Below are positions 9,973-51,800 of a stretch of DNA of 64,000 nt, piece by piece. Both the position numbers and the translations under genes were made by a program. The stretch comes from a virus. The notes beneath the pieces were generated by a model. The model was given only the letters and a program-made list of their open reading frames with translations, was not told where the DNA came from and did no database searches. Position 1 is the stretch's first letter, and each line of letters starts with the position of its first letter. The stretch is taken from positions 57,178 through 121,177 of the IMG/VR virus record IMGVR_UViG_3300009419_000009. One strand, written 5' to 3'.

Positions 9973-9980
9973 CATTTAGA

Positions 9981-14348: not shown

Positions 14349-14391
14349 TTTGATTCTAGCTTGGTTTTGACGCAAAATTTGTAAATTTTGG

Positions 14392-16329: not shown

Positions 16330-16347
16330 TTGCTTCCTCCTACTCTG

Positions 16348-16355
16348 TATTTACC
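16348..16355 (-). promoter_or_regulatory. Late promoter motif GGTAAATA
   Basis: This motif lies 19 bases upstream of the ATG at 16329. GGTAAATA is the commonest form of the motif in this window (five copies). Confidence 0.6.
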
Positions 16356-16362
16356 GAGTAGA

Positions 16363-16779: not shown

Positions 16780-16780
16780 A

Positions 16781-17107: not shown

Positions 17108-17119
17108 TCTTTATTTTTC

Positions 17120-17788
17120 CTAAAATATAATTGAGTAAACGATTGCTCTTTTTTTGCTAATAAGTTCTTCGCCAACCACTGTGCCATCACCGGTGGTAAC
17201 ATACACACCTGTTCCACCAGCGGCAACATTGCCACCGTGAACGGTATTTCTGTCGCTGACCACGGCAGGAGCACTTGGATATATTTGCAAAGCTAGATTG
17301 CTGTTTACTTTTATATACTGAGTGGTAACTCCTTCTGCGGCAATGCTCACATTGGTATTACTGGTCACCCAGTTTGGTCCTACATTCAAGTTGGCGCTCA
17401 ACTCTGGTGCAAGATCTTCGTTTAATTTTGTTAGGCCTGTGCTGGTGGCAACAATGTTAGATTCAAGTCCGCTAGGGTCTTTTACTGTCCACGAATCAAA
17501 ATCTTCATTCCACAACAAATATGTGTTTGGAGAGCTGCCACGATTGACTTCAATACCAGCACTTAATGAAGGTGCCGCATCTGGCGCCAAATTTGCAGTA
17601 AGTGTAATCTGGTTGTCAGTTATGTAAGTGTTTTGGATGTTTGCGGCAGTGTAGTTCAACAGGTATGTATCGCCATTGATACGCAGATTTCCGTTGATAA
17701 TTACCACATTTGAATCCAAAGTGATAGGATCACTTCTATTGACTGTGTTAATTGTGTATGGACCGCTAACGTTTTTAATAATGCTCAT
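17120..17788 (-). CDS. Fibre-module protein, 222 aa
   Basis: The start is the ATG at 17786-17788. Residues 1-60 hold the fibre unit DSNVVIINGNLRINGDTYLL, followed by IQNTYITDNQITLTANL. At about 75-105 is an SAGIEVNRGSSPNTYLLWNE segment of the kind seen in tail-fibre spacer modules, then VKDPSGLE. Later segments (GPNWVTSNTNVSI, YIKVNSNLALQIYPSAP) continue the beta pattern. It shares the INGNL/ITDN unit with the N-terminus of the 1,438-aa fibre. It heads a three-gene unit (222, 108 and 138 aa) with its own late promoter. It is probably a small fibre or surface component. Confidence 0.68.
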   Translation of the reverse strand: MSIIKNVSGPYTINTVNRSDPITLDSNVVIINGNLRINGDTYLLNYTAANIQNTYITDNQITLTANLAPDAAPSLSAGIEVNRGSSPNTYLLWNEDFDSWTVKDPSGLESNIVATSTGLTKLNEDLAPELSANLNVGPNWVTSNTNVSIAAEGVTTQYIKVNSNLALQIYPSAPAVVSDRNTVHGGNVAAGGTGVYVTTGDGTVVGEELISKKRAIVYSIIF

Positions 17789-17807
17789 ATGAATTCGCCA
17801 TTTGCTT

Positions 17808-17815
17808 TATTTATG
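17808..17815 (-). promoter_or_regulatory. Late promoter motif CATAAATA
   Basis: This motif lies 20 bases upstream of the ATG at 17788 and just downstream of the terminator at 17835-17856. Confidence 0.6.
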
Positions 17816-17834
17816 CGGTAAGGAGCTCAAACAA

Positions 17835-17856
17835 AAAGAGGGCCGAAGCCCTCTTT
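17835..17856 (-). terminator. Intrinsic terminator with UUCG tetraloop
   Basis: A 9-bp perfect stem (AAAGAGGGC/GCCCTCTTT) is closed on the minus strand by TTCG and followed by a T-rich tract. It lies about 24 bases beyond the stop codon at 17880. Confidence 0.85.
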
Positions 17857-17879
17857 AGGATCCACTGCAAACGAGGATA

Positions 17880-18608
17880 TTAAGCGTTGGCTAACACAAC
17901 AGTAGGTAGTTCTACTACTGATGGGCCGTCTGCGGCTGATGGGTTTCCACCGCTGGTGCCTGCTTCTGCAGATCCAGTAATGGTCCATTTTGCAGTATCA
18001 CCATCAGGAACATCAAATCCTGTGCCGCCGTCGGTGTTTTGTACCAATTCAACTTTGTTCTTGTTGATCTTCTTGACCCAGTATGTGCTGCTTTGGCTGT
18101 CTGTAGCAACAATGGCCATTTCGCCAGCGGCGCTTGGTGTAGCGGCCACTAGCTTGCAAACTGCGGTGCCGTCTTGCGATCTAACTCTAAAACGCTTGCT
18201 ACCAACTTGTTTCAAAATGTCGTTGCCAGTGGTGCGGTTTGTGGAACTGATACGCACTTGCGGTGCCAGTGCATTAGCACGAGCAGTTGCAGCCGATACG
18301 GAAGTTAATACTGCTGTCAAAGTTAGTGTACCTTGTGTGCCTGTGTCTGCAGAGATAGTTGCTGATGTGTAGCCAGAACCAACTGTGCTAATGGACACGT
18401 TGCCAATTACACCGTTTGCAAAAGCATTGACAGTACCAACTGCTTGTGTACTACCTGCAATCTGCGGTGCAGAAATTGTTAGTGCATCACCTGTTGTGTA
18501 GCCAGATGAATTGTTAGTGCCACCTAATGTGACACTGGAGATACCTTCACCGCCAATGTTGTCGGGGTTTGATTCACCAAAGAATTTTTTATTTAGAGGA
18601 CGTCCCAT
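17880..18608 (-). CDS. Virion protein next to the capsid gene, 242 aa
   Basis: I place the start at the ATG 18606-18608 rather than at 18662, because AGGAGAAAAC sits directly before it and the protein then begins MGRPLNKKFFG. Residues 20-100 contain two VxxGSGYTxxxI-type units (SSGYTTGDALTISAP, VSISTVGSGYTSATIS), the same unit that recurs in the giant protein at the right end of the window. The C-terminal half is globular: FRVRSQDGTAVCKLV, GEMAIVATDSQSSTYWVKKI. It lies directly downstream of gp23 on the same strand but has a separate promoter. A head decoration or head-surface role is a guess from position; the family is not recognised. Confidence 0.65.
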   Translation of the reverse strand: MGRPLNKKFFGESNPDNIGGEGISSVTLGGTNNSSGYTTGDALTISAPQIAGSTQAVGTVNAFANGVIGNVSISTVGSGYTSATISADTGTQGTLTLTAVLTSVSAATARANALAPQVRISSTNRTTGNDILKQVGSKRFRVRSQDGTAVCKLVAATPSAAGEMAIVATDSQSSTYWVKKINKNKVELVQNTDGGTGFDVPDGDTAKWTITGSAEAGTSGGNPSAADGPSVVELPTVVLANA

Positions 18609-18667
18609 TTGTTTTCTCCTTAATATGATTAGCGTTCTAGGCCTACGCGGTGGGTACCGCATAAGTT

Positions 18668-18682
18668 ACTTGAGTGTCAAGT
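18668..18682 (-). other. Hairpin at the predicted 5' end of the late mRNA for the 242-aa gene
   Basis: ACTTGA-GTG-TCAAGT is a perfect 6-bp stem with a 3-base loop. It starts within a few bases of the initiation point predicted from the late motif at 18691-18698. A second inverted repeat, GCGGT/ACCGC, lies at about 18640-18653 in the same leader. Confidence 0.5.
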
Positions 18683-18690
18683 GAACATTA

Positions 18691-18698
18691 TATTTACC
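18691..18698 (-). promoter_or_regulatory. Late promoter motif GGTAAATA
   Basis: The motif lies 83 bases upstream of the ATG at 18608, giving the longest late leader in the window. It is back to back with the plus-strand sigma70-like promoter at 18706-18734. Confidence 0.55.
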
Positions 18699-18705
18699 TA
18701 ATAGT

Positions 18706-18734
18706 TTGCTTTGTAGTTGTGTCTGCTATATAAT
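18706..18734 (+). promoter_or_regulatory. Sigma70-like promoter TTGCTT-N17-TATAAT
   Basis: A perfect -10 hexamer (18729-18734) lies 17 bases after a TTGCTT -35 (18706-18711). The same -35 and spacing recur before gp55. It faces right, against the head genes, and is followed within 75 bases by an intrinsic terminator. Confidence 0.55.
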
Positions 18735-18740
18735 AGCTAC

Positions 18741-18808
18741 AGGTGCTAGTCAGACAGCATCCTGTTTAGTTGGTACCCGAGTGTAGAAATATGCTCGGGT
18801 ATTTTTTT
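18741..18808 (+). ncRNA. Candidate 68-nt small RNA between capsid and surface genes
   Basis: No gene occupies 18609-18877. On the plus strand a sigma70-like promoter is followed by a hairpin (18742-18747 with 18756-18761, one G-U pair, 8-base loop), and then by a perfect 8-bp stem TACCCGAG/CTCGGGTA (18774-18781 with 18794-18801) and seven T residues. The layout of promoter, 5' hairpin and terminator hairpin within 70 bases is that of a small regulatory RNA. It contains no ATG-initiated frame and I do not recognise a known RNA family. It is transcribed opposite to the flanking virion genes but ends before gp23, so it is not antisense to the capsid frame. Confidence 0.5.
18774..18808 (+). terminator. 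Intrinsic terminator of the small RNA
   Basis: An 8-bp perfect stem with a 12-base loop is followed by T7 on the plus strand only. It would also protect the gp23 region from rightward antisense transcription. Confidence 0.75.
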
Positions 18809-18818
18809 AGCCAACAAA

Positions 18819-18838
18819 AAAGCGCCTTGCGGCGCTTT
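18819..18838 (-). terminator. Intrinsic terminator after gp23
   Basis: An 8-bp perfect stem AAAGCGCC/GGCGCTTT with a GCAA loop on the minus strand and a following T run lies 40 bases past the capsid stop codon. It has the same architecture as the terminator at 4999-5018. Confidence 0.85.
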
Positions 18839-18877
18839 CTTGCTCTTCCCATCCCTGAGTCGATTTTACTTTTGTGA

Positions 18878-20059
18878 TTACTGGAAAGACAAAGTACCAG
18901 AAGTGATACCAATCTTGCCCAGGTAGTCGCCAGCATTGCCAAGAGACGATGCTGTGTTGGTCAATTCTACATAACCATAACGTGTCATAAAGCCCACGAC
19001 TGGTTCGAATGTAGCTGGATCCAGCACAACGCCAGAGCTCATTAGCGGTACGTATGGGCAATAGAACGCGGCAGCATCTGCCTCGCTAGAACCTTTGTAA
19101 CCGATAAGAACTGCTGTGCCTGTGTTAGCATAGCTGTCAACGTAAACACGCATTGCGCCGTTCAATGTACCAACAAACTTGGTGTTTGTAGGTGCTTCGA
19201 AAGTGCCTTCTGTAGTGCGAGCAAAAGCAGAAGTTGTAGCAGACTGAAGAACTGTTAGAGCCTCAGCAGATACAACTGCCCAGTTTGCCGCGCCACGACG
19301 TGTACGCTGAGCGATCAAGTTAGCAGTACGGTTGATTAGAACTGCCAATGCGGCATGCTCGTCACCAACGAATGTAGCTGTACCAGAAACGCTTGACTGG
19401 TCATATGTGAATTCAGTTGCGGCCAAAGAACGTAGGCTAGCTAGGATTTCTTGGTCAATTTCAACTGTGATTTCTTGTGCAAGTGCGGCCATGATTTCTG
19501 CCTCAACATCCAAACCATGCATGGCTTGTGCGTCTTGAGCAGCTTCAAATGTCCAACGTGCTGACAACTTACGAGTCTTAGCTTCAACAACTTGTTTCAA
19601 GATTTGAACATTGATACGATTACCTGGTACGCCTTCTAGTGTAGCTGTGTTGCTAGCTCTAGAAGTTGCGCTGTTACCGGAGTAAGCAGTAGCAATACGG
19701 AATGGGCTTAGAGCCTCATCACCGGCTGTTGCGCCATCACCGCTTGTGGTTGCGCTAACTGTGTCAGCGTAACGTACACGTAGTGTATGGATTTGTGCAA
19801 CTGGACCTGTCATAGGTTGTACACCAACGATTTCGTTAGCAATAACGGTTGGCATAACGCGACGGATCACTGGCAGAATCACGCGATTCAATGTAGCTAC
19901 GTTGCTTGAAGCTGTAGCGCCACCTGTTGCATTTTCTGACAGATACTTGCGGGTGTTCTCTAGGATTACACCCATTGTAGTTCTTTTAGAACCATTTAGG
20001 CCTTCTAACAGGGCATCTTTTGTTTCGCCCCAACGGCTCTCTAGTAGTGCGGTTGTCAT
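18878..20059 (-). CDS. gp23: Major capsid protein gp23
   Basis: The 393-aa product forms the icosahedral head shell. T4 gp23 is 521 aa, so this is a short version typical of distant T4 relatives. Residues 43-95 carry the T4-family region: NATGGATASSN, VILPVIRRVMPTVIANEIVG, VQPMTGPVAQIHTLRVRYA. The C-terminal region has FYCPYVPLMSSGVVLDP and FEPVVGFMTRYGYV, also characteristic. The N-terminal ~42 residues are probably a propeptide removed by the prohead protease: the motif LSE ends at residue 42, fitting the L/I-x-E cleavage rule. The ATG at 20057-20059 has AGGAGAAGG upstream. It follows gp22 after 27 bases and has no late motif of its own, so it probably depends on transcription from further upstream. 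Confidence 0.95.
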   Translation of the reverse strand: MTTALLESRWGETKDALLEGLNGSKRTTMGVILENTRKYLSENATGGATASSNVATLNRVILPVIRRVMPTVIANEIVGVQPMTGPVAQIHTLRVRYADTVSATTSGDGATAGDEALSPFRIATAYSGNSATSRASNTATLEGVPGNRINVQILKQVVEAKTRKLSARWTFEAAQDAQAMHGLDVEAEIMAALAQEITVEIDQEILASLRSLAATEFTYDQSSVSGTATFVGDEHAALAVLINRTANLIAQRTRRGAANWAVVSAEALTVLQSATTSAFARTTEGTFEAPTNTKFVGTLNGAMRVYVDSYANTGTAVLIGYKGSSEADAAAFYCPYVPLMSSGVVLDPATFEPVVGFMTRYGYVELTNTASSLGNAGDYLGKIGITSGTLSFQ

Positions 20060-28099: not shown

Positions 28100-28113
28100 A
28101 GTGTGTATTTCAA

Positions 28114-28121
28114 TATTTATG
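28114..28121 (-). promoter_or_regulatory. Late promoter motif CATAAATA for the tape measure
   Basis: The motif lies 38 bases upstream of the tape measure ATG at 28075. Its predicted start point (~28107) nearly coincides with that of the plus-strand promoter at 28092-28099 (~28106). Confidence 0.6.
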
Positions 28122-28132
28122 AGGATCAAAAT

Positions 28133-29008
28133 ATGAGCACAGAACCAAACGCAACAGCCAGCGTAAACCCACTGAGTAAATTTTTCCGTACTCCGGCCAT
28201 TTACTTTTCGCTGCCATCTGGTGGAAAATGGTGGCCAGAGGGCAGTTTGGACCTGCCCGAATCCAACGAAATTGCAGTTTACCCAATGACCAACAAAGAC
28301 GAAATTTTAATTCGTACTCCAGATGCGCTGATCAACGGGCAGGGTGTGGTAGAAGTCATACAAAGTTGCATTCCCAACATCAAAGATGCATGGAAAATGC
28401 CAGCTACCGATGTGGATGCGGCTCTTATTGCCATGCGCATTGCCAGCTACGGACACAAAATGGATTTTTCCAATCAGTGCCCACACTGCAAAGAAGAGCA
28501 TGATTATGCTCTAGATCTACGACACATGCTGGAAACTATCACTGCACCAGACTATGAAACCAAACATCTAGACCTAGAAGTGATAAAAATTCGATTTAGA
28601 CCGCAAAAGTACTGGGAAGTAAATCACGCTAACAAAACAGCATTTGAAGTGCGCAAGCTACAGATGGCCTTGGAAAACTTGCCGGTTACCGAAGAAGACG
28701 AAGAAAAAACTCGTGCAGTAACACAACAACTCAAACGTGTTAACGAAATCAATCACAACATCATGGCCAAAAGCACAGAGTACATTGAAATCATTGACTC
28801 TGGGGAGAGGGTTGAAAGTCCTGAGCAGATTGAAGAATTCTACGGACAGATTGGTAGAATAATGTTTGACAAGATTCAAGACGAAATCACAAAGATACAA
28901 AAAGAAGGTTCAGTTAAACCTGTGTCTGTCAACTGCTTGAGTTGCCAAAAGCCCATGGAAATAACCATACTGTTTGACTACGCTAATTTTTTCGTAGTCG
29001 GCTCTTGA
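28133..29008 (+). CDS. gp26: Baseplate/tail assembly protein gp26, with zinc-ribbon cysteines
   Basis: I start at the ATG 28133 (GAGG 9 bases upstream) rather than at 28103, giving 291 aa. The segment IRTPDALINGQGVVEVIQSC with NIKDAWKMPATDVDA and AMRIASYGHKM is the signature of T4 gp26 and its relatives (T4 base-plate family). Two CxxC pairs, C116/C119 (CPHC) and C268/C271 (CLSC), probably bind one zinc ion. T4 gp26 is a hub assembly factor of 208 aa. The last codons include a TTTTTTC slippery site in a hairpin loop, so a fraction of ribosomes may continue into the overlapping frame and make a ~363-aa product. It is transcribed divergently from the tape measure. Confidence 0.85.
   Translation: MSTEPNATASVNPLSKFFRTPAIYFSLPSGGKWWPEGSLDLPESNEIAVYPMTNKDEILIRTPDALINGQGVVEVIQSCIPNIKDAWKMPATDVDAALIAMRIASYGHKMDFSNQCPHCKEEHDYALDLRHMLETITAPDYETKHLDLEVIKIRFRPQKYWEVNHANKTAFEVRKLQMALENLPVTEEDEEKTRAVTQQLKRVNEINHNIMAKSTEYIEIIDSGERVESPEQIEEFYGQIGRIMFDKIQDEITKIQKEGSVKPVSVNCLSCQKPMEITILFDYANFFVVGS
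28976..28999 (+). promoter_or_regulatory. Candidate programmed -1 frameshift site
   Basis: The heptamer T-TTT-TTC (28987-28993) is in the correct gp26 frame for an X-XXY-YYZ -1 slip. It is framed by a perfect 7-bp inverted repeat, GACTACG (28976-28982) and CGTAGTC (28993-28999). After a -1 slip the frame is open from CGT 28993 through to the stop at 29223. The zero frame ends five codons later at 29006-29008. Confidence 0.6.
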
Positions 29009-29276: not shown

Positions 29277-29659
29277 CTTTACGCTCAAGCGAATTAAGTT
29301 TCATCTAGATTCTATGGTCACACTTCGCCCTGGCCGGGCAAAGGTTAGCTTCATCTGAGTTCTGATAGCCACATAGCGTTACAACATTACAGAGGCGGTT
29401 GTCCGGTACCTCGAGTTGCGTCTTTATTACAACGGCGGGCTTGTACACATACGCTAACATACATACAAACCGTGTGCTATCGCTAGCACGTCTTTTTGCC
29501 TTTATTATCTTCAAACAATCAAACCACAGCAATTTGCGATCTTCGTCCTGTAAAGGATAGTGATTGAGTACTCTGTACAGCGCAGAGAATTCCGTCCCTG
29601 TGATCCGAGATCCAGGTTTAGAGCACACGATGTTGGCCTGTGCTAGCCTTAACTGTTGA
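29277..29659. other. Convergent gap between the gp26 unit and the nuclease operon
   Basis: The two flanking units converge here. Apart from the terminator hairpins at its left side and one doubtful minus-strand frame (29305-29628), I see no tRNA, promoter of the late type or repeat array. Confidence 0.5.
29305..29628 (-). CDS. Doubtful hypothetical protein, cysteine-rich, up to 107 aa
   Basis: This frame lies 31 bases downstream of the nuclease stop on the same strand and is open upstream into the nuclease gene, but the only standard initiator is a GTG at 29626-29628 with no ribosome-binding site. The translation looks protein-like in its first two thirds (TEFSALYRVLNHYPLQDEDR, KLLWFDCLKIIKAKRRASD) and has several cysteines near the end (LCNVVTLCGYQNSDEANLC). 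It could be the last gene of the leftward operon, the remnant of a longer gene, or non-coding. No family was recognised. Confidence 0.3.
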   Translation of the reverse strand: MCSKPGSRITGTEFSALYRVLNHYPLQDEDRKLLWFDCLKIIKAKRRASDSTRFVCMLAYVYKPAVVIKTQLEVPDNRLCNVVTLCGYQNSDEANLCPARAKCDHRI

Positions 29660-30175
29660 TTATTTGCAGAGTTGCTTGACAGCGTCTGCGTTTATTTCCC
29701 AAAACGTATCATAGTCCATGATGAACCAATGACCGTGTTTGGCGGAGCCATAATTAAAATGCCGTGTAAAAGTAAGGGGAGTTGAGTTGGGCTGTGCTTG
29801 TACTGCTACAAACATTCCTTTGCGATTGAACTTCATGAACAAAATGTTGAAATCGCCTTCGTCGGCTACATCCATGGTTTGTTCAATCCATTCGTCTAGT
29901 TGCTTACATGAGCCTTGAAAGAGTTGATGAAATGGAAAGTCTTTGTAACTTTTGCACTCAGCGTTGAACTTCGGAAAACTCTGTCCAGGGATAATGTCCC
30001 CTTTGAAGCTTCGAATCTGTCCTTCGTGCAATACCTCTTTGCGTGAGGCATTTGACCCACCAATATAAGCGCCAGAGTGCGGAACGCGGATAAAGCGTTC
30101 TCCGTAGGTTACTGTAAGGTGATCTGCTACCCTACGTTCCCATGCGTTGCCTTTGGCTTTTTGTGGTGATGTCAT
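29660..30175 (-). CDS. PD-(D/E)XK nuclease, Holliday-junction-resolvase-like, 171 aa
   Basis: The product has the core of the PD-(D/E)XK fold: an early GNAWERRVADHL helix with E13, VPHSGAYIGG, then FKGDII with D60 and FNAECKSYKDF with E73 and K75. Spacing and the GD...ExK pattern resemble archaeal-type Holliday junction resolvases and other small phage nucleases. The C-terminal half has aromatic strands (FNILFMKFNRKGMFVAVQAQ, HGHWFIMDYDTFWEI). It is the last confident gene of the operon containing gp46 and gp47, so a role in resolving recombination or packaging intermediates, in place of T4 gp49, is a fair inference. The substrate is not shown. It starts at the ATG 30173-30175. Confidence 0.75.
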   Translation of the reverse strand: MTSPQKAKGNAWERRVADHLTVTYGERFIRVPHSGAYIGGSNASRKEVLHEGQIRSFKGDIIPGQSFPKFNAECKSYKDFPFHQLFQGSCKQLDEWIEQTMDVADEGDFNILFMKFNRKGMFVAVQAQPNSTPLTFTRHFNYGSAKHGHWFIMDYDTFWEINADAVKQLCK

Positions 30176-30227: not shown

Positions 30228-31244
30228 CTACCATTCGGTAGCATATTCTTTGTTTACAACCTGTTTAGAACACTTGGTTTTGCACTCTTGCCAGCGGAAA
30301 GTTTGGAATTCTGTAGTCCAAAAAACATCATCTAACACGTCTTTCAACGTGCGCTGAGTGAGGTCAAAGTAGCGACCTCGTTCCTGCCATTCTGCGTTAT
30401 GTTCGTATCTATTTGCCACCCAACAGCAAGGAAACAAGTGACCCTGCGAGTTTATATACACGCCCTTGTTGCCTACTGCACACAGTGGAATCACTGGTTT
30501 ATCACGATATTCTGCTTGTGTTTTGTGCCACGCGGCAGTGTTTTCTGCATGCACACTCGCTGGCACACGATCGCGCAGTTGTTTAATAGTTCGCTCAAAA
30601 CGTTGATTTTGAGCTATGTGTTCAGCTCGAGGTTGCAACACATCTGTTGGCCCGTATATTGGGTATACCTGTGCAAACTTGGTTGAACGTGTGATTTGTA
30701 AAAAATCAAATCCACGACTTGTGGCATGACGTTCAATTTTGTCCAAATGATCTTGATTGAATTCAAATGCTATAGCGGCCCAGGTCATTTGCACTGAACT
30801 GTGAGCTCTAAGCACATCAATACCTTCCATGATACTGTCCCAATCAGAATTAGCCCTGTACTGGTTGTTGCTGATGTTGTCGTAGCCATCAATGCTAAAG
30901 TGTACATGATCACGATGTGTCAACACATGAGCTAGACCGCGCCACCAGTCGGTGCTTTTGTAACTGCCATTGGTAATAATGACAATTTCAACATCAGCCA
31001 GGCTTTTCAAATAAGCAATGATAGATATCAAGTCATGTGCATAGATAGGGTCACCGTCGTCACCGCAGAATGTAATTTTACGCACTTGCTGTTCGACAAA
31101 CTGCTGTGTGAAGTTTCGTTTGAAAAACTCTAGATCTAATTCTGTATTCACAAGTCCGTTGGGAACTTCTTGCCTGGCACAACGTGGGCAATGTAACGTA
31201 CACTTGCTGGACACTTCAATGTGCCAATGCCACGTGGCTAGCAT
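30228..31244 (-). CDS. Radical SAM protein with SPASM-like tail (fourth of four), 338 aa
   Basis: The CX3CX2C motif CTLHCPRC (C15, C19, C22) would bind the 4Fe-4S cluster that cleaves S-adenosylmethionine. An EIVIITNGS strand and HFSIDGYD strand fit the partial TIM barrel. The C-terminal part has PLCAVGNKGVYINSQGHLFP followed by CC, and later ECKTKCSK, a SPASM/twitch-like set of cysteines for an auxiliary cluster. It is paralogous to the two other C-tailed proteins in this operon. Its start (ATG 31242-31244) overlaps the previous stop by 7 bases, so translation is coupled. The substrate is unknown: SPASM proteins usually modify peptides or proteins, but no precursor peptide is obvious here. 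Confidence 0.85.
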   Translation of the reverse strand: MLATWHWHIEVSSKCTLHCPRCARQEVPNGLVNTELDLEFFKRNFTQQFVEQQVRKITFCGDDGDPIYAHDLISIIAYLKSLADVEIVIITNGSYKSTDWWRGLAHVLTHRDHVHFSIDGYDNISNNQYRANSDWDSIMEGIDVLRAHSSVQMTWAAIAFEFNQDHLDKIERHATSRGFDFLQITRSTKFAQVYPIYGPTDVLQPRAEHIAQNQRFERTIKQLRDRVPASVHAENTAAWHKTQAEYRDKPVIPLCAVGNKGVYINSQGHLFPCCWVANRYEHNAEWQERGRYFDLTQRTLKDVLDDVFWTTEFQTFRWQECKTKCSKQVVNKEYATEW

Positions 31245-32143
31245 AATGCGGTGTCCTCTTGAAACTGACTTTCAAATCTTGTTTGGTCATTTGTGGTTGC
31301 ACAAAACTTGGTGCATACAGGGTGTGGATTGTCTTTCCAGCTAGCAATCAGTGTAACAGGATCTGCTACTAATTGCTTGAGTCTTTTGTCCATGCGAAAA
31401 ACTTCACTGCCTATAAAACAACAAGGCAGTATCTCGCCTGTGGCGGCCATGTAGATACTTTGTTCGCGCATGGCATGACAGTCCACAGGACCATCTGCTG
31501 TTACCGGCACAAAGTCCTTGGGTGGAGCAAGAAATTTAATTGGTCGCTCTTGAAAGCGTGAACTGACTTTGGTACGGAAACGCACAAAGCCCATCTTTCT
31601 AGCATGCTCTCTGCAGGTGTCAACATGATGTTGATTGTGTTGGAACACCAGCATGTCCCAGTGTGCTCTACCGCCAGCTGAAATAAATGTTTCTGCATTG
31701 AGCATGATTCGATGCCACATCACACCTTGGCGATATATGTCATTGGTGCTGGCCATGCCGTCAATGCTGAATACACAGTAGTCTAGCTCACGGCTTAATA
31801 GCTTGCCCATGTCTAACCAAAACAGTGTGTCACGTAGCGCACCATTGGTATTGAGTCCGATCACAATGTCAGGATTGACTTCACGGAACCACTGAAATAT
31901 CTGCAGACATTCTCGCGCCGCACATGGATCACCAAAGTTACCACATGCAAATACCTTGCTTAGATTACGTACAAATTGTTCAGGAAATGTACGTTTAATA
32001 AGTGCAAGACCAACATCGTGATCCGTAGTGTACCCTGACTCGGGATCCATTCTAGCACATTGAGGACAGCTGGCTTGACAGCGAGTGGTTAGCTCAAGAT
32101 GCAGAACTTGGATGTCTTCAAACAATGTCGGTGTCTGTACCAT
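31238..32143 (-). CDS. Radical SAM protein with SPASM-like tail (third of four), 301 aa
   Basis: The CX3CX2C motif RCQASCPQC gives C22, C26 and C29 for the SAM-cleaving cluster. A GLNTNGALRDTLFW segment and CVFSIDGMAST follow in the barrel, then RAHWDMLVFQHNQHHVDTC, closely matching the second protein of the set. The C-terminal cluster region is VDCHAMREQSIYMAATGEIL, then PCC, and VCTKFC near the end. It overlaps gp46 by 26 bases upstream and the fourth radical SAM gene by 7 bases downstream. It is cytoplasmic with no signal peptide. Its place directly after gp46 suggests co-expression with recombination functions; the reaction is unknown. Confidence 0.85.
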   Translation of the reverse strand: MVQTPTLFEDIQVLHLELTTRCQASCPQCARMDPESGYTTDHDVGLALIKRTFPEQFVRNLSKVFACGNFGDPCAARECLQIFQWFREVNPDIVIGLNTNGALRDTLFWLDMGKLLSRELDYCVFSIDGMASTNDIYRQGVMWHRIMLNAETFISAGGRAHWDMLVFQHNQHHVDTCREHARKMGFVRFRTKVSSRFQERPIKFLAPPKDFVPVTADGPVDCHAMREQSIYMAATGEILPCCFIGSEVFRMDKRLKQLVADPVTLIASWKDNPHPVCTKFCATTNDQTRFESQFQEDTALC

Positions 32144-33887
32144 AACTTGTGAATCCGTTTTCTTTTGTGACTGTTAGCACGTTGTTTACTCGACTGGTCA
32201 GTTCGTCTTTGTGTGATACCAACCAAACAGATTTATTACGATCACGTGACATCTTCTTGAGAATAGACAAGGCGGCTTCTACACCTGAACTGTCCATACC
32301 TGAGTCAACCACTTCGTCAATAAACATCAAATTGATAGGCTGATACAAACTTTCCCACACATCACGGAACGCCCAGGACAATGACAGGATCAAACGATTG
32401 CGTTCGCCTCGGCTCAAGTTATCAAAGTCCAGCTCACGTCCTAGCTCTGTGATGTTCACTGTGAGATCGTTTTGGAATATCACAGTGTGCGGTAGTCCAA
32501 TCTTGTCCAAGTAGTGACTCAGTCGTTGATTTAGATAAGTTAAATTTTGATCAATGATGCGTTTGCGCACATAACTGTCTTTGCTGGTCAAGAGCTTGAG
32601 CAAGAAGTCTTGATGATCACGCAAACTTACCAAGCGGTTCATTTCATCGTAATCAATTTCTTCTACTGCTTTGTTTTCCATTTCTGTAATTTGTTCAGCA
32701 TAAGGATCTGCTTCGTCCTGTTTGGCTGTGATTTGACTCAATATATTGCCCAAGCTCGCACGATGTTCAAATGCATCTGCTTCTTTGTCGTAGAATGTTT
32801 CTGGAACTGGTCCAAGCTCGCCTAGTGCCTGTAGTGCATCAGTATGCTCCATCCACTGAGTATTTGTTGCCAGTGCTTGTAGTGCGGCTTCTTGCAGACT
32901 TTTACGTTTGTCAGCCAACACCTGCTCATGCTTTTCATCATGCATTTCCTGTCCACAAGCATAGCACTTGTGTTCTTCCAGTTGAGCAATTTCTGCTTTG
33001 AGCTTGGCAATGGTCTTGTTTTCTTTGGCTTCGTCAACTTCGCAACGTGCAATATATTTTTGTAAATCAGCACGATCCTTGACCAATTGAGTGTGCCGCA
33101 CCAGATCTTGATGTGCTAGCAGTTCGGCTTCGATGTCAATCTTGCCCAGCTCGTCATAGGCTATTGCTAGCTTGTCAAGATCTTCTTGCTTTTTACGTAG
33201 CCACAAAGTTTGTCGTCGACGCAGATTTTCAATTTGATCTTCCATGCGTTTGTTGGCATCACGCACAGCATTGATACGATATTCTTCCTTGGTTATAGAT
33301 TCTTTGCCAAGTTTGATTTGTTCTTTGAGATTTTCTGCTTTTTCACTCAGTTGTGTAACACCCAACAGTTGCTCAATCAACACACGCTGATCCGCGGCTC
33401 TTAGACTCAGGAAAGGTTCAGTGTAGGTGTTCAGTGCAACAATATGTTTGAACATTTCATGGCTCATGCCCAACAGTTGTTCAATTGCATGCTGTGTTTC
33501 GCGACTGTCACCTTGGCTTTCGTCTTTGACTTCTTGTTCTTGGTCGCCAATAAAAAACTTCATGATGTTGGGCTTGCGTCCACGTTCAACTCTATAGGTT
33601 TGTCCGTTGTTTTCAAACTCAAGATTGACTATCATGGCTTTGCCATTGGTCTTGTTAATCAAGTTTTCTTTGCGAATACGAGTAAGAGCTTCACCGTACA
33701 TGGCATAACTCAGGGCATTGATAATTGTAGTTTTGCCTGTGCCATTACGTGCGCCAGTATCATCTCCGCCTAGATCCAAGTTTTGTCCTAGTACCAAGGT
33801 CAAATCATTTCTATTGAAATTCACAGCCTGAGTTACATTACCCACGCTCATGAAGTTTTTAACAGTTAGAGTTTTTATTTTGAGCAT
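32118..33887 (-). CDS. gp46: Recombination nuclease ATPase subunit gp46 (Rad50/SbcC-like)
   Basis: The 589-aa product (T4: 560 aa) has the SMC/Rad50 layout. The Walker A motif GARNGTGKT spans residues 45-53. Long charged coiled coils run from about 180 to 420, and a zinc hook CYAC lies near residues 308-311. The ABC signature LSRGERNRL is near 494 and Walker B LMFIDEVVDSGMD near 519. With gp47 it processes DNA ends for recombination-dependent replication and host DNA breakdown. In T4 genes 47 and 46 are close together; here two radical SAM genes lie between them. The start overlaps the preceding stop by 13 bases and the end overlaps the next gene by 26. Confidence 0.95.
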   Translation of the reverse strand: MLKIKTLTVKNFMSVGNVTQAVNFNRNDLTLVLGQNLDLGGDDTGARNGTGKTTIINALSYAMYGEALTRIRKENLINKTNGKAMIVNLEFENNGQTYRVERGRKPNIMKFFIGDQEQEVKDESQGDSRETQHAIEQLLGMSHEMFKHIVALNTYTEPFLSLRAADQRVLIEQLLGVTQLSEKAENLKEQIKLGKESITKEEYRINAVRDANKRMEDQIENLRRRQTLWLRKKQEDLDKLAIAYDELGKIDIEAELLAHQDLVRHTQLVKDRADLQKYIARCEVDEAKENKTIAKLKAEIAQLEEHKCYACGQEMHDEKHEQVLADKRKSLQEAALQALATNTQWMEHTDALQALGELGPVPETFYDKEADAFEHRASLGNILSQITAKQDEADPYAEQITEMENKAVEEIDYDEMNRLVSLRDHQDFLLKLLTSKDSYVRKRIIDQNLTYLNQRLSHYLDKIGLPHTVIFQNDLTVNITELGRELDFDNLSRGERNRLILSLSWAFRDVWESLYQPINLMFIDEVVDSGMDSSGVEAALSILKKMSRDRNKSVWLVSHKDELTSRVNNVLTVTKENGFTSYGTDTDIV

Positions 33888-34834
33888 TTTTGTGTACAGA
33901 TTAAATTAGGTGATTGATTGAAACTTGCCGGATATCTTTTTTGCCACAGGTCACCATTGATTATGTCCTCTAATGTGCTAGTGTAGAGATTTATTTGGTC
34001 AAAGTCAATAGCCAGCGTGTTCCTAAAATGATAGTTGACCACTTCATAGGTTAGTTTTTGTTGTGTGGCCTTGTGCCACCCCATGAGATAACAGCAGGGC
34101 CATACTGTGCCATCAGCATAGATAGATATCCATCCTTCGCGCTGACTTTCGCATGAAATTTTTCCAGTTGTGGGTTTTATGAAATCTTTTTCAACAAAAG
34201 TCACTGTGGCTGGCACAAGTTCTAGATTGGCAGGCTGTAGGTGTGCCTGCGACTGGTCTTTCAAGTTGAATCTATCTTGCCGCAGTACAAAAAACTTTTC
34301 AAAATTCAGTTGCTCACTCAACTGCTTACAAGACTCTATTTGATGTGCATTGTGTTCAAACAAAATAAACTGCCAATGTGCATGGCCACCACCTTGCACA
34401 AATGCCTGGGCATTGTCAATAATCTTTTGCCAATTGGTATTGGTTCTGTAGATTTCGTGTGTATCTTCAAGTCCGTCAATGCCAAATACCACACTGTGAT
34501 TGTGTTTGCTCAATAGTTTGCCCAGTTGTTGCCACCAGCTGGTACTGCGCAAACTGCCATTGGTGTGTATGTTGATCTCAGCGGTGGTATTGCAAACAAC
34601 CCACTCAATGATATTGAAAATATCTGGGTGCATGATGTTGTCACCCGTGGTACCATTAAAATTGATTGTTTTGAGATTTTGCCATACATGCAACGGAACC
34701 TGTTTGACAACGTGATGCCAGTCCAGCGTGTCATTGGTACGCATGCCCGGGTGTCGCAAACACTGGACACATCCTGCATTGCAGTTGTTTATGGTTTCAA
34801 CGTCTAACACAACTATGTCGTTAACAGTCAGCAT
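33875..34834 (-). CDS. Radical SAM protein with SPASM-like tail (second of four), 319 aa
   Basis: The CX3CX2C motif CNAGCVQC (C18, C22, C25) is close to the N-terminus, as in the third and fourth proteins. Barrel segments include INIHTNGSLRSTSWWQQLGK, VVFGIDGLEDTHEIYRTN and AHWQFILFEHNAHQIESC. The tail has KISCESQREGWISIYADGTV with WPCC, and ICTQKCSK at the very end, giving five cysteines for an auxiliary cluster. The start overlaps the first radical SAM gene by 14 bases and the end overlaps gp46 by 13. The paralogy with the third protein is obvious by eye over at least 90 residues. Confidence 0.85.
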   Translation of the reverse strand: MLTVNDIVVLDVETINNCNAGCVQCLRHPGMRTNDTLDWHHVVKQVPLHVWQNLKTINFNGTTGDNIMHPDIFNIIEWVVCNTTAEINIHTNGSLRSTSWWQQLGKLLSKHNHSVVFGIDGLEDTHEIYRTNTNWQKIIDNAQAFVQGGGHAHWQFILFEHNAHQIESCKQLSEQLNFEKFFVLRQDRFNLKDQSQAHLQPANLELVPATVTFVEKDFIKPTTGKISCESQREGWISIYADGTVWPCCYLMGWHKATQQKLTYEVVNYHFRNTLAIDFDQINLYTSTLEDIINGDLWQKRYPASFNQSPNLICTQKCSK

Positions 34835-35945
34835 TTAGTCGTTCAACCAGTTCTGGAAAAGACTCTGCAACACTGTTGCCACGACGGAGGTCTAGTTTTT
34901 GGCAATAGTCAAGTATGTCCTGCGCGGCACTGTAATGCGGCGTGTGCAGTTGTGTTTGTATTTGTTTGATTGAAGGATTATCAATGCCGTTGAGTCGACT
35001 GTGTATCCAGGCTCGAGTTTTTACCGGAGCTCGATGCATGTTAAGAATCAATGGATCCTGCAACTTGTTGTAGAACACTTCAAGATCATTTGTTTTGCAA
35101 AATTCTTCTACTTCTGCAAGATAACCCACATTGAATATACTGGTCGTGTGCAAGATCAGCAGTCTAACTTTTTGTAGCTTTTTATATTGTTGAATATTTT
35201 TAACCAAAGTATCCCAACTGGCCGGAAATCTTAAATATTCAAATCTACTACCAATGCCATCCATGCTGATGTTTATATCAACTCGTTTGAAGTGCTGCCA
35301 GTATTCCAATTGCTCATCAGGCATGCGTGTACCATTGGTGGTGTACAACAAGGTAATGTGTTTGGAATGTCCAGATTCAACCAAGTACTTGAATAAATCA
35401 GCTTGTTCTTGTTCCAACATCATGAACGGTTCACCGCCAATAAATTCTATCATACCAATACCTGCGGCACGGTCTCTCAAACTCTGCCAGACTGGATCAG
35501 TTTTTTTCAGCATGATAGGACGACTGGCTGGATCACCAAACTTTTTGTTTTCGCTAATCCAGCCAGTACTTACATCATCATTACAGGTAACACAGCGAAG
35601 ATTGCAGTGATTTCCCAATCTTACATAGTAACGAACAAACTCATCCTGTACAACATCCAATGCTGGCTTGTACTTGTAGTCAAACACTTGACTGTAGAGT
35701 TGATTGTCTCGCAATCGCTTACTGGAATATCCTTGTGATTCTTCCTCCCAGCAATGCACACAATCTTTGACAGGAACTCCGTCTAGTAATTGTTTTTTAA
35801 GCGTGGCAAGTTCAGTACTGTTGGCATATTCATTGATACTTGCAAATCCGTGGGACGAGGCGTAGACACAACAAGGGCTATAACCTTGCCCAAATTGATA
35901 GTTTATAGAAATCCATGGATTAACGCAAAAGGTTTTTTCATTCAT
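34821..35945 (-). CDS. Radical SAM protein with N-terminal SPASM/twitch-like cysteines (first of four), 374 aa
   Basis: This member has a different order from the other three. The N-terminal ~70 residues carry C7, C25, C26, C62 and C65 (FCVNPWISINYQFGQGYSP then CC; DCVHCWEEESQG), like a SPASM/twitch module placed in front. The SAM motif CNLRCVTC follows at C114, C118 and C121. Barrel strands MIEFIGGEPFMM and VDINISMDGIG are typical. I recall twitch-type radical SAM proteins with this N-terminal pattern in environmental phage genomes. The ATGA overlap with the gp47 stop (35942-35945) shows tight coupling. The substrate is unknown. Confidence 0.85.
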   Translation of the reverse strand: MNEKTFCVNPWISINYQFGQGYSPCCVYASSHGFASINEYANSTELATLKKQLLDGVPVKDCVHCWEEESQGYSSKRLRDNQLYSQVFDYKYKPALDVVQDEFVRYYVRLGNHCNLRCVTCNDDVSTGWISENKKFGDPASRPIMLKKTDPVWQSLRDRAAGIGMIEFIGGEPFMMLEQEQADLFKYLVESGHSKHITLLYTTNGTRMPDEQLEYWQHFKRVDINISMDGIGSRFEYLRFPASWDTLVKNIQQYKKLQKVRLLILHTTSIFNVGYLAEVEEFCKTNDLEVFYNKLQDPLILNMHRAPVKTRAWIHSRLNGIDNPSIKQIQTQLHTPHYSAAQDILDYCQKLDLRRGNSVAESFPELVERLNADC

Positions 35946-36954
35946 AGATGTTTGTAGATATCCAGCAATAGATTTCTATCATAATGCTCACTGGATATTG
36001 CGTTTAACTGATTTTGCACTATGGTATCAACGCTTTCAAATTTGATTTCACCTTGTGTTCCGTCCACCATTTCTACTTCTTTTTTAGGAATCAAACTGAG
36101 TTCTCTCAACTGATACGTTTCAATGAAAGTTTCTTTGATAAAGTTTGCTTCTTCGTAGCTGAGATCAATGTCAATGTTCACTCGAGCATGCATTCGAGGT
36201 TTGAATACCTTTTCTGCATCAGTGACCACACTGCTCAAACTCAGCACACGATAGGTAGGCTGATCTGGCCATGCGTGATACTCCGGCTCTTTGTCCCATT
36301 CCAGGATCATCATGCCGCGATCTTCGTCACCGTCATCTGCATAGTTGTGCGGAAAACAGTTGCCAATGTATGTGATGTTGTTGGCAGTTTGGCGCTTGTG
36401 GAAATGTCCAGTGAATACTTTTTCAAAGCCCACAAAGTCTTCTCTACGAGCTTCGCCCACATCGGGCATTTGAATCATGGCGTTCATAAAGTAGCCTGGT
36501 AATTCAAAGTGTCCAAAGCAGTACTTGCCTTTTTTCTTCAGAAGCTTTTTGTGATCATCACCCACTAGCCACGGAGCAATGGTCACATCTCCTTGGCTGA
36601 ACCAGTCATTGCAAATGTGAATGTTAGGAAGATGTCGAGCCCATTCTACACTCTGCACATCACGTTTGTCTCTGTAGTACAAGTCATGATTGCCAGGGAT
36701 AAAATACACAGCATCAAAATTGTCATTCATATGCTCCAGTGCTTTGAGACTGTAGTTCAAAGTCAGAATGTTCAACGCAGATCTGTTGTTGTGCCAGTCG
36801 CCAAGAAACAAGCAGGTTTCAAACCTTCTTCTTTGGCTTTGGCGGTGGCCCATTTGACAAACGCCAAACAGTCTTCGTTGTGCGTGATACTGTTGGATTT
36901 CAATCCAAAATGGATATCAGTCCATACTGCGGCTTTTTTGAATAGATTAGGCAT
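35942..36954 (-). CDS. gp47: Recombination nuclease subunit gp47 (Mre11/SbcD-like), frame broken by one base
   Basis: The calcineurin-like phosphoesterase motifs are present but split between two frames. The ATG at 36952-36954 opens a frame with VWTDIHFG (D13, H15) that stops after 60 residues. The next frame supplies FLGDWHNNR, FIPGNHD, FGHFE and FTGHFHKRQ through to the stop at 35942. Adding one A-T pair to the AAA run at 36821-36823 restores a single frame of about 337 residues, matching T4 gp47 (339 aa). With gp46 it forms the Mre11-Rad50-type nuclease. A one-base loss in a homopolymer suggests a sequencing error, but a real mutation cannot be excluded. The gene overlaps the first radical SAM gene by 4 bases. 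Confidence 0.9.
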
Positions 36955-37004: not shown

Positions 37005-37892
37005 CTACTCTTCGTGACCGCCGCCTCCACTGCTGGCCATTTGACGTGTGTAACTTGGGTTCAAGTTGTTCATTTGCAAGATGTCGTCCCTTAGATTCTG
37101 GTTGCGTTTTTCAATGTTAAGCACACGAGTGAATGAGTTGGTAATAGCTGCCGTGTAATAAGCAAATGGATTTTGACTCTTGCTTTCATCAAACTGCAAA
37201 CCAATCTGACTCAACTGTAGCAGAGCTTGTGAGCGCATTTCATCATTGTATGTGTAGCCACGCCAGTTAGATCTTGTGGCATAGCGTTCACACAGTTTCA
37301 TAAACATGTGAGCCAGCTTGTTGGTCATTGCTCCGTGGTCTCTAGAATAGCATCCTGTGTCTGGATCGCCTTTCCAATGACTGATGCCCACTACCACTTG
37401 CAACAGGTTGTCTTCTGTGTCACGAGCAAGTTTTATGTGCTTGAACGGCGGAAAATTAACCTTGACAAATTTGGTAGGCTTGGCCGGCTCGTCAGCATCG
37501 TACTCGGTGTCTGCGGAGTCTTCATCTTCTTCAATCACAGGTTCAGCTTTGCCACGTTTTTTGCTGACTTTTACAATTTCTTGTGTGGGCACATGTTCCC
37601 ATGTCATGACACGAAACACTACTTCGTCTTCGGGAATCTTGGTATGCTTGATCAAAAAATCTTCTAGTTTGGCCTTGGTTCCGCCCAGCAAGGCTTCTTC
37701 TTGGGCAATTTTAGCCAGGCGCTCGGCACGATTTTTCTTTGCTTCGGTTATGTCTTTTTTAGTAATTTTTCGCCCGTCAGTGATGATCATGTCGTAATCA
37801 GCATCCAGTGGGTTTTTATACCAGCAGTAGGTGTTCTTACTCTTGTGTATCTCTTTCAAGATATCTTTATTGTTGAGATAATTGTGCTTCAT
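37005..37892 (-). CDS. gp55: Late-transcription sigma factor gp55
   Basis: I choose the ATG at 37890-37892 (AAGGA upstream, protein starting MKHNYLNNKDIL), giving 295 aa. The region from about residue 195 has the gp55 signature: RYATRSNWRGYTYNDEMRSQ, ALLQLSQIGLQFD, and NPFAYYTAAITNSFTRVLNI. This is the highly diverged sigma-2-like part that reads the late -10 element. T4 gp55 is 185 aa; the extra N-terminal half here contains a Lys-rich helix and an acidic EEDEDSADTEYDADEP stretch. It heads the leftward recombination/radical SAM operon, and a sigma70-like promoter lies upstream. Its presence agrees with the TAAATA motifs before the virion genes. Confidence 0.9.
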   Translation of the reverse strand: MKHNYLNNKDILKEIHKSKNTYCWYKNPLDADYDMIITDGRKITKKDITEAKKNRAERLAKIAQEEALLGGTKAKLEDFLIKHTKIPEDEVVFRVMTWEHVPTQEIVKVSKKRGKAEPVIEEDEDSADTEYDADEPAKPTKFVKVNFPPFKHIKLARDTEDNLLQVVVGISHWKGDPDTGCYSRDHGAMTNKLAHMFMKLCERYATRSNWRGYTYNDEMRSQALLQLSQIGLQFDESKSQNPFAYYTAAITNSFTRVLNIEKRNQNLRDDILQMNNLNPSYTRQMASSGGGGHEE

Positions 37893-37923
37893 GTTTAGCA
37901 GTATCCTTATAAAACTACCACTT

Positions 37924-37952
37924 ATTTTAGCAGGTAAATAGTACAAAAGCAA
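37924..37952 (-). promoter_or_regulatory. Sigma70-like promoter TTGCTT-N17-TAAAAT for gp55
   Basis: The -35 TTGCTT (37947-37952) and extended -10 TGC-TAAAAT (37924-37929) are 17 bases apart. Predicted initiation is near 37917, leaving a 25-base leader with AAGGA. The spacer contains, on the other strand, the late promoter of the baseplate operon. Confidence 0.5.
37933..37940 (+). promoter_or_regulatory. Late promoter motif GGTAAATA for the baseplate operon
   Basis: It lies 24 bases upstream of the ATG at 37965, with AAGAGG as ribosome-binding site in between. Confidence 0.65.
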
Positions 37953-48842: not shown

Positions 48843-51800
48843 ATGAGCATCAAAAGCATAAATCTTTTACCCGAAGTATTTCGTACAGAGCCTAACCGCA
48901 AGTTTCTGGCAGCAACCATTGATCAGTTGATCAGTGAAGGCGATCAAAGTGTAAGATTAGATTCCTACATTGGTCGTAAAAATGCTCCCACTTGGAAAAC
49001 TGGTGACACCTATGTGAAAGAAACCAATAGCGATAGACAAAATTATCAGCTTGAAACATCAGTCATTGTTGATGGTGGACAAGGCCGCACAGATTTTTAC
49101 AGCAGTTATCTAGACCTATTGCAACAAATTGCATACTATGGTGGTATTACCACAGACCATAGCAGATTATTTGCCAATCAGAGTTATACATTTGATGGAT
49201 GTTTTGATGTTGATAAATTTGTAAACTTCAACAATTATCTATGGCTTCCAAATGGCCCACCAGAGATTACTATCACGGCTGGCAATCAAGACATTGCATT
49301 AGAATACAGTGTTGTTCGCAATCTCAATGCACGTGGATATCAGTTTACCGAGTATGGAGACAACAGAAATCCCATTATTACATTGGTAAAAGGTCAGTCT
49401 TACAAATTCTTAATCAACCAAACAGGAAATCCTTTTTGGATTCAAACAGCCGCTGGTGTATCAGGCACACTAGGGCCTGTTGCTGAACAGTTGAACAGAC
49501 AGATACTGGGACTAAGCAATAACGGAATTGATTCAGGCATACTTGAATTCAATGTGCCACTAGGTGATGCACAAGACGTACAGGTCACTGCTGTGTCTGC
49601 AGCCACAGTGGACTTTGCTACCACTGCCAGCTACAGCAAAATTCAAAGTTATTTGGTAAATCAACTGGCCAAACAAGGCGGCATTGACGGAGTAAGTCAA
49701 GGACTGAATGGAAAAACCCTTGTGTTTGCAAATGCAGATGTGGACAACGAACTGTGGAAAGATGCCGGCAATTTTGATTTTGACAAGTTTGACGAAACAC
49801 CATTTGAATATGGCGAACTGGTGCCAGGCGAAAAACGTCGCTGGGTGTTCCGCATTCGTACAATTGATGTAGGAAACAATCGCCAAATTATAAAACTTGA
49901 TCCTATCACTGAAGTATTACCTGGCCAGAAAGTCTATGTAAAAGCCGGACAAAGATATTCCAACGTTGAATTATTGTTAAACAACAGTGGGTTCTATGAA
50001 ACTATAGATCCTATCACTGCACCGTTGGACACACTGTACTATCAAGACAATTCAGAGCCTGGCTTCTTTGGCATCATACGTTTGGTCAATCCAGGCACAG
50101 AAACCATCAACATTGACAATGACATCATTGGAACAGAAAACTATACCAGCCCTAATCAAGTTGTATTGACCAATGGCATGCATATCAAGTTTGATAACAC
50201 TGCTACTCCAGCAAGATATGCAAACAACAACTATATTGTTGAAGGTGTTGGCACAGCAATTAAACTAATCAACGTTGGTAATTTCACTGTGCCAGAACAA
50301 TACGCAGTTGACAGCGGATTAGCGACTCCGGACTACATCACTATCAATCGTGCCAGCAAAGATCTCAATGCATGGAGCCGTAGCAATCGCTGGTTCCATA
50401 TAAGCACCATTGAAGACGCCGCCAAATATAGAGAAGATCCAACACTGTTGGATCTATCAATGGTTCAGCGTGGCAAACGCCCAATTATTGAGTTTGATCC
50501 AAACATCTATTTGTTTGACTATGGCCGTACATCCAAGAGCCCAGTGGACATTATTGATTTTACAATAACCAATGCTTTCCAAGACGTTGAAGGTCAAGAG
50601 TACTATACAGTACGCATGCCTAACGGAATTGTTCGTCAGCTGACACCAGGTGTTCGAGTAATTTTTGCAGCCGACGATGATCTTGAAGTGCGCCGTAGAA
50701 TATATCGAGTGGATTTTATCACAACATCAACTGGTAACAGAATTCACTTGGTAAGCCAAAACACACAAGATTTACCTGCATACGAAGTTGCTGGTGTAAC
50801 TATTACCAGCAACTTGTCTTATAATTTTATACCAACTGTTACTTTTGCCAAGCCATTGCCAGGTATCGGCACACGAGTTGCACAAGGCAATGTGGTACTT
50901 AAAAATAGTGGAATTGAAAGCATTGATATTGCTTACGGTGGTGTCAACTTTATTGCTGATCCCTATATTAAAATCAACAGCGACTACATTGATCAAGTTC
51001 AAACAGAAATTAACTATCGCACATTCAAACAGATAGATTATGTTAGAATTGATTCTGCTGGTACCGGCTATACAACTACAACTCCTAACATCAGCATTAG
51101 CAACCCAAATCAATATTGGGCAACAGTAACAAATGTGAGTCTTGGCACATCAGGTTTGACATTTGAAGTGGCAGCAGGTCCATTAATTAATCCTCCGACC
51201 ACTGGTGTGATTCAAGTTGACGGATCTGGCAATGTGGTTGCTACATTTGGCAATATTGGACTTGGGTATTACCAAGCAAACGTGAGTGCAAGCATCAGCG
51301 CCCCAACTGCACCTGCAGGCACAGTACCAGTTGTAAACAATGTTTATTTGTATGCAAATGGAGCAATTAAATCTATTAGATTAAGCAGTTATGGATCCGG
51401 ATACCTAACTGCGCCTACTATTACATTCACTGGCGCAAACACCTACACTGCTTCAGTAACTACAGTTGGTCGAGTTACAACATCTGCCACATTGTGGGAT
51501 TTCCTAACACCGGGATATCAAATTATTGCCAATGGTATCATTGGTGGCACAATCGTTTCTGCAATTGACAATGAAGCAAATTTAATTACAATCAATGCGC
51601 CAGCTGTGTCTGCAAATCTAGAAGCTGCCACTCCATTAACTGGAGTAAGCACAGTTTCAGTTGGTGATTTGTGGACCTTCAAAGCCAATGCAACTGCTGG
51701 CACATTTGCAACTGCCACAGCAACACAATTGGCCAGCAAATCAGTCAAAGTCAACGATACCAGCATGTTAGATGTTGGAATGGTTATAAGTGGCGGTATT

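Follow-up and report, generated by a model that had tools for sequence, protein, structure and literature searches.

A cargo hotspot around gp46 and gp47 in uncultured T4-like phages carries radical SAM genes that may tailor sugars or glycans

In a clade of uncultured T4-like phages, the interval running from the late sigma factor gene gp55 through the recombination nuclease genes gp47 and gp46 to a baseplate gene is a cargo hotspot, in which the core genes keep their order and the slots between them swap accessory genes. We describe this interval in a 64,000-nucleotide stretch (the window), the last 64 kb of the incomplete 121,177-bp contig of a T4-like phage (IMG/VR record IMGVR_UViG_3300009419_000009), where genes for four radical S-adenosylmethionine (SAM) proteins, rSAM1 to rSAM4, are interleaved with gp47 and gp46. 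That the locus is specifically a hotspot for sugar- or glycan-tailoring enzymes, with its proximity to gp46/gp47 being positional and not mechanistic, is in our judgment an evenly balanced proposition. We infer the catalytic activity, sugar substrate and role in infection of these proteins from the comparisons below.

A variable slot between conserved genes

Open reading frame (ORF) calls and profile searches place the genes, 5′ to 3′ on the minus strand, in the order gp55-like sigma factor, gp47, rSAM1, rSAM2, gp46, rSAM3, rSAM4 and PDDEXK_15 nuclease (Table 1). The original prediction of this order and of overlapping genes holds from gp47 to rSAM4, where successive spacings of –4, –14, –13, –26 and –7 bp form a single run of 4–26 bp overlaps. 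The nuclease gene, at +52 bp, and the sigma gene, at +50 bp, stand outside this run.

With gp46 as the query, 80 loci of this clade were recovered, their identity being about 57–73%. Thirty-nine of these, including the window, are complete from the sigma gene to the baseplate gene, although L005/L006, L086/L087 and L092/L093 appear to be near-duplicates. Radical SAM genes occur in 31 of the 39 complete loci (range one to four, with the window tying for the maximum), and eight have none. In the full set of gp46 loci, incomplete ones included, 78 radical SAM genes follow gp46, 17 lie between gp47 and gp46, and 11 precede gp47. Across 19 contigs, PF04055 matches number 24 in 159 kb of locus (0.151 per kb) versus 26 in the 1836 kb elsewhere that lie outside a second array discussed below (0.014 per kb), a 10.7-fold enrichment (binomial p = 7e-14) obtained with a profile that misses some radical SAM genes, including two of the window's four in this search. 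Together with the invariance of the catalytic cysteines, this recurrence beside gp46/gp47 in related uncultured T4-like phages bears out the expectation that the co-location is not a matter of chance. The converse, homologues scattered away from gp46/gp47, is seen in part, as most radical SAM genes of the larger relatives lie elsewhere despite the enrichment at the locus. Scanning viral contigs directly with rSAM1 found no relative; its kin came through the gp46 loci.

Other cargo in the same gaps includes SegE GIY-YIG endonucleases, an AMP-binding enzyme (AMP-ligase), sulfotransferase-like proteins, GDSL-like proteins (labeled at this locus by motif and by eye) and short-chain dehydrogenases/reductases (SDRs), and the types vary between loci. 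The gp55–alpha-gt–gp47–gp46 region of T4 has the same core genes, but its gaps hold 46.1/46.2, 47.1, alpha-gt, mobB and alpha-gt.2–.5 and no radical SAM gene. These T4 inserts occupy the same slots as the clade's cargo and include a homing endonuclease and an enzyme that transfers a sugar; this enzyme, alpha-gt, glucosylates DNA. Pseudomonas phage PAC2 (Arenbergviridae), which has the nearest cultured gp46 among those listed (50% identity), carries nothing between gp55, gp47 and gp46, and no radical SAM gene there. Because T4 and PAC2 differ in what these gaps contain and the cargo varies, we view the interval as a variable slot between conserved genes, for which the nuclease genes gp46 and gp47 are landmarks.

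The original prediction went further and linked the radical SAM proteins to the nuclease at the time of recombination-dependent replication. If these proteins modified gp46/gp47 or supplied something to the complex, gene overlaps and a roughly tenfold enrichment at the locus would be natural, as would the co-variation with gp46 of rSAM4 orthologues from the window's sub-lineage, which score above 400 bits (rho = 0.60, Mantel p = 0.0005, n = 15). Over all rSAM4-class proteins, however, this co-variation almost vanishes (rho = 0.13, p = 0.07), a difference indicating that rSAM4 is inherited within a sub-lineage and exchanged above that level. Moreover, radical SAM genes are missing from the eight complete loci and PAC2 mentioned above, cargo types differ among loci, genes 46, 47 and 55 of T4 are separated by other genes including alpha-gt and mobB, Campylobacter and Pelagibacter phages hold related radical SAM genes with no gp46/gp47 in the stretch read, and the larger relatives keep many of their radical SAM genes in the second array. 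We consider functional coupling very improbable; proximity to gp46/gp47 would give shared transcription at most. The broader idea of a dedicated phage pathway fares better, in that a phage biosynthesis is plausible, but its proposed timing with recombination-dependent replication is unsupported.

Table 1 Features of the hotspot in the window
Feature	Position	Strand	Evidence
gp55-like late sigma factor, upstream hotspot boundary	37005..37952	-	phrog_12791 9.3e-77
gp47 (SbcD/Mre11-like), frame broken once	35942..36954	-	phrog_100 1.1e-47
rSAM1: N_Twi radical SAM, with a twitch-like cluster domain at the N terminus ahead of the core	34821..35945	-	NF033640 3.9e-84, 283 bits; model pLDDT (predicted local distance difference test) 85.8
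rSAM2: radical SAM + C-terminal SPASM/twitch-like domain, gp47–gp46 slot	33875..34834	-	PF04055 + PF13186 above cut-off; tree
gp46 (SbcC/Rad50-like)	32118..33887	-	phrog_77 1.9e-97
rSAM3: radical SAM + twitch-like domain, downstream of gp46	31238..32143	-	phrog_21308 2.5e-13; TIGR04317 1.3e-10; same-place orthologues in other phages
rSAM4: radical SAM + twitch-like domain, downstream of rSAM3	30228..31244	-	PF04055 3.1e-10; alignment A1; model pLDDT 84.7
PDDEXK_15 / RusA-like nuclease, also in some relatives' loci	29660..30175	-	PF24608 1.9e-25; phrog_244 5.3e-19
Baseplate hub protein, downstream hotspot boundary	28103..29008	+	PF12322 1.8e-19; phrog_150 1.5e-23

Comparison of the ORFs at 36772–36954 and 35942–36853 with relatives reveals a one-base frameshift in gp47 near 36810–36820 of the window contig. 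The gene is intact, at about 338 amino acids, in many relatives, and the break may be an assembly error or a broken gene. Elsewhere in the window, an ORF of at least 5052 amino acids (48843–64000) is still open at the contig end and encodes a giant protein that is probably structural. Among the other phage contigs, one (L022) has 33 tRNA genes at positions 9335–18915, within its first 20 kb, and a further viral contig rich in radical SAM genes (L009) appears to have HemE-like and HemC-like genes, identified by eye, and several dioxygenase-like genes at 2817–5746 on the minus strand.

The four radical SAM proteins and their possible chemistry

As predicted, all four proteins carry a CX3CX2C SAM-cluster motif and a PCC motif. 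The SAM-motif cysteines are C114/118/121 in rSAM1, C18/22/25 in rSAM2, C22/26/29 in rSAM3 and C15/19/22 in rSAM4. The additional SPASM/twitch-like cysteines are also present throughout: C228, C247/248, C313 and C317 in rSAM2; C222, C241/242, C277 and C281 in rSAM3; and C255, C273/274, C321 and C325 in rSAM4. In rSAM1, by contrast, they are N-terminal (C7, C25/26, C62 and C65), so that its auxiliary domain precedes the core instead of following it. In the other three, the SAM motif opens a short radical SAM core, which is followed by a C-terminal twitch-like domain whose cysteines would suffice for one extra cluster. The conserved CX3CX2C motif thus places all four in the radical SAM superfamily, and the C-terminal cysteines place rSAM2, rSAM3 and rSAM4 with the SPASM/twitch proteins. 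Subfamily profile searches assign rSAM1 to N_Twi_rSAM (NF033640), which it matches at full length (residues 4–368) and above the 170-bit cut-off. The PF04055 cut-off is passed by rSAM1, rSAM2 and rSAM4, and that of PF13186 (SPASM) by rSAM2; rSAM3 has no Pfam match and was matched by a phrog profile.

In the rSAM2/3/4 classes, all 90 of the 90 rows aligned share the three SAM-cluster cysteines, the CX3C pair and the PC cysteine, the SAM-cluster motif is invariant in 15 N_Twi rows, and all four auxiliary-cluster ligand positions are invariant in the rSAM4 alignment. Degenerate cluster cysteines in relatives, which would have spoken for chance co-location, were therefore not seen. Recent tandem duplication of rSAM2, rSAM3 and rSAM4 was rejected, as the three form separate deep lineages in the tree, each with positional orthologues in other phages.

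What might such enzymes do? Core genes keep their order while the slots exchange cargo, which here, between gp47 and the nuclease gene, consists entirely of radical SAM genes. We propose that the likeliest role of the encoded proteins is C–H radical chemistry (oxidation, dehydration/deoxygenation or epimerization) on sugars or sugar-derived metabolites, and that the target would be a glycan made or remodeled during infection, which might be soluble or belong to the virion or the host surface. The reaction would be finished, in related lineages, by a partner SDR, much as the reductase AprD3 does for the radical SAM dehydratase AprD4. AprD4/AprD3, a radical SAM enzyme with an NADPH-dependent reductase, removes a hydroxyl from an aminoglycoside sugar (PMC5461906).

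Two sets of partners suggest this chemistry. First, an SDR adjoins or is fused to the radical SAM protein in all 11 rows of a lineage of 369–404 amino acids at the gp46 locus, including three fusions (L004, L098 and L104) that form single proteins of 568–578 amino acids, and an SDR lies upstream in all five rows of an rSAM4 sub-lineage of 364–373 amino acids. The loci were retrieved through radical SAM or gp46 queries, and their sampling is hence biased, but this bias does not explain same-strand adjacency within 250 bp together with three fusions. Second, long contigs of relatives, with up to 17 PF04055 matches, contain a second conserved array in which five to six N_Twi radical SAM genes are accompanied by GDSL-like proteins, one of them assigned to DUF6071/Lipase_GDSL_2; nine stretches (L108–L116) were taken and five read in detail. 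A NodU-type carbamoyltransferase is found in eight array-carrying contigs. Because an AprD4/AprD3-type arrangement, carbamoylation and glycosyl transfer share a theme, sugar or glycan tailoring appears to be the likeliest function of the family. We count in its support the hotspot, its conservation, the cysteines, SDR pairing and fusion, the carbamoyltransferase array and bacterial kin that sit with glycosyltransferases.

Several observations weigh against sugar tailoring. AprD4/AprD3-type pairs occur in sister phage lineages and in Bdellovibrionota, whereas the window's own contig, a fragment that does not contain the second array, yielded no SDR, carbamoyltransferase or annotated glycosyltransferase. 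The reaction of rSAM3 and rSAM4 is the least certain part of the proposal because their lineages have no adjacent dehydrogenase. The SDRs upstream of some rSAM4 rows have low profile scores (17–29 bits) and SDR motifs recognized by eye, and the glycosyltransferase-like proteins flanking the array were likewise identified by eye only and have no Pfam match. Three of the bacterial rSAM4 kin discussed below (L153, L154 and L118) have no clear glycan cluster around them. Fold searches with the models gave generic radical SAM matches only. The best PDB entries for rSAM4 were BlsE and viperin, those for rSAM1 were anSME and CteB, which act on peptides or proteins, and the TM (template modeling) scores of about 0.4–0.55 do not discriminate.

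Finally, most characterized SPASM enzymes act on peptides or proteins. Our main rival explanation, also raised in the original prediction, is thus that the target of these SPASM/twitch enzymes is a structural protein of the phage, a host protein or a small peptide resembling the ribosomally synthesized and post-translationally modified peptides (RiPPs). Besides being the commonest role of characterized family members, this would suit sub-cut-off NCBIfam matches that include the peptide maturases PapB, StsB and CcpM, and the standing of anSME and CteB as the nearest solved folds of rSAM1. Nevertheless, rSAM2, rSAM3 and rSAM4 begin at the SAM motif (residues 15–29), so that a peptide-recognition domain would have no space at the N terminus, and the overlapping run has no precursor-size gene. 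Neither the N-terminal extension of a RiPP maturase nor a conserved small ORF was found in that run, a search of adjacent genes that would not reach a distant precursor; a 107-amino-acid ORF at 29305–29628 is a singleton in the insert clustering. The recurrent partner, moreover, is an SDR and not a peptide, protease or transporter. We regard peptide or protein modification as doubtful: it gained no positive evidence, and the context of SDRs, carbamoyltransferases and bacterial glycosyltransferases points to sugars.

Modification of nucleotides or hypermodification of DNA can be argued by analogy with T4, in which alpha-gt occupies the same 55–47 slot, and from the rSAM4 folds, as BlsE acts on a nucleoside and viperin on CTP. 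Each of six related genomes, however, has one PF00303 protein (349–361 bits), and the three that were read have the FNIASY motif of an ordinary thymidylate synthase, with no pyrimidine hydroxymethylase seen. On these grounds, thymine or cytosine hypermodification was rejected; the window's incomplete contig has no PF00303 protein. The viperin model NF038283 reaches 27.9 bits for rSAM4, the highest among the four proteins, against a cut-off of 180. Nucleotide or DNA modification is, in our view, decidedly unlikely.

Chromosomal kin in Bdellovibrionota

At an E-value cut-off of 1e-40, rSAM4 homologues are present in 21 of 291 sampled genomes of the phylum to which a Bdellovibrionales metagenome-assembled genome (MAG) belongs. 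At the same cut-off, none was found in 297 genomes from the phylum of a Flavobacterium MAG or in 399 from that of an uncultured proteobacterium MAG, empty answers that alone prove little, although the same query did match in the Bdellovibrionales phylum. In a maximum-likelihood tree, the phage rSAM4 clade (24 rows) groups with five bacterial rows (support 100/100), and the phage rSAM3 clade (22 rows) groups with four (97/93). Homologues in a Pacearchaeota MAG (L117) and a Flavobacterium MAG (L120) were not counted as cellular relatives; these contigs, with a radical SAM array and phage-like small genes, are probably phage sequence binned into MAGs as contamination.

The bacterial genes, which are the nearest cellular relatives of rSAM3 and rSAM4, are chromosomal, without phage core genes nearby, and in several genomes are surrounded by more radical SAM genes of the same types, SDRs and glycosyltransferases. 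The nearest rSAM4 kin often have an adjacent SDR (L118, L119 and L155). In L119, this pair lies beside a Wzx-type polysaccharide flippase, an epimerase, two GT1 genes and PhyH; GT2 genes occur in L149, L155 and L157; and L159 has GT1 and GT28 genes with a NodU-type carbamoyltransferase. Five loci (L149, L155, L156, L157 and L159) contain three to nine radical SAM genes per 14–20 kb, plus SDRs and/or glycosyltransferases. These clusters thus resemble those of the phages in their mix of genes and in the sister clades of rSAM3 and rSAM4, and differ in their chromosomal setting. A more speculative reading is that a modular radical SAM/dehydrogenase/carbamoyltransferase pathway, shared by descent between the T4-like clade and Bdellovibrionota, makes a new, radically remodeled glycan in phages that infect Bdellovibrionota or their relatives. 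We think this unlikely. A gp46 search of the sampled Bdellovibrionota-group genomes, bearing on the host, found nothing.

Relation to known systems

The existence of T4-like phages rich in radical SAM genes is already known. Within the open-licence literature, we found no account of the gp46/gp47 hotspot, of phage radical SAM–SDR pairs or of the relation to Bdellovibrionota, no matching description of twitch domains with glycans or of Bdellovibrio radical SAM clusters, no functional study of the bacterial clusters and, in keeping with the original prediction, no system with this layout. T4-like phages have been known to contain radical SAM genes since 2010, with no function assigned to them, and the locus offers a defined conserved set. 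Repeated SDR partners, natural fusions, the second array with its recurrent partner enzyme and chromosomal counterparts bring the substrate question within reach of in vitro tests. Were the products glycans, these phages would be a reservoir of oxygen-sensitive chemistry for tailoring sugars and of a new route to altering virion or host surfaces.

Among characterized enzymes, AprD4/AprD3, whose substrate is a sugar, resembles the sister lineages in pairing a radical SAM protein with a reductase, in its case an NADPH-dependent one. Unlike those lineages, the window has no dehydrogenase, and there is no specific sequence relation to AprD4 (6fd2 is only rank 47 for rSAM1); the twitch domain of BtrN matches the N-terminal domain of rSAM1 weakly (E = 0.0025). 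Among phages, Campylobacter phages CP220 and CPt10 carry 11 and 12 radical SAM genes, some of them in an interchangeable module, as well as a putative glycine amidinotransferase (PMC2853527), and a TARA T4-like genome has twelve (PMC5332604). CP220 and CPt10 are, like the window phage, T4-related myoviruses, and they have distant rSAM2 and rSAM4 homologues (22–28% identity). In the stretch read, however, none of their radical SAM genes was seen at gp46/gp47; these genes belong to other lineages in the tree and include no N_Twi match by tblastn. The host-recognition cluster of pelagimyophages has radical SAM cassettes that vary between close phages, in an island with lipopolysaccharide-type glycosyltransferases, and others have interpreted the glycan genes as serving surface change or superinfection exclusion (PMC7029224). 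That island differs from the window locus in lying between VrlC and gp14, and rSAM2 and rSAM4 share 22–26% partial-length identity with a protein of Pelagibacter phage Mosig. Mosig nevertheless parallels the clade described here in that its MoaA-like genes have a carbamoyltransferase close by, along with aminotransferases and oxygenases.

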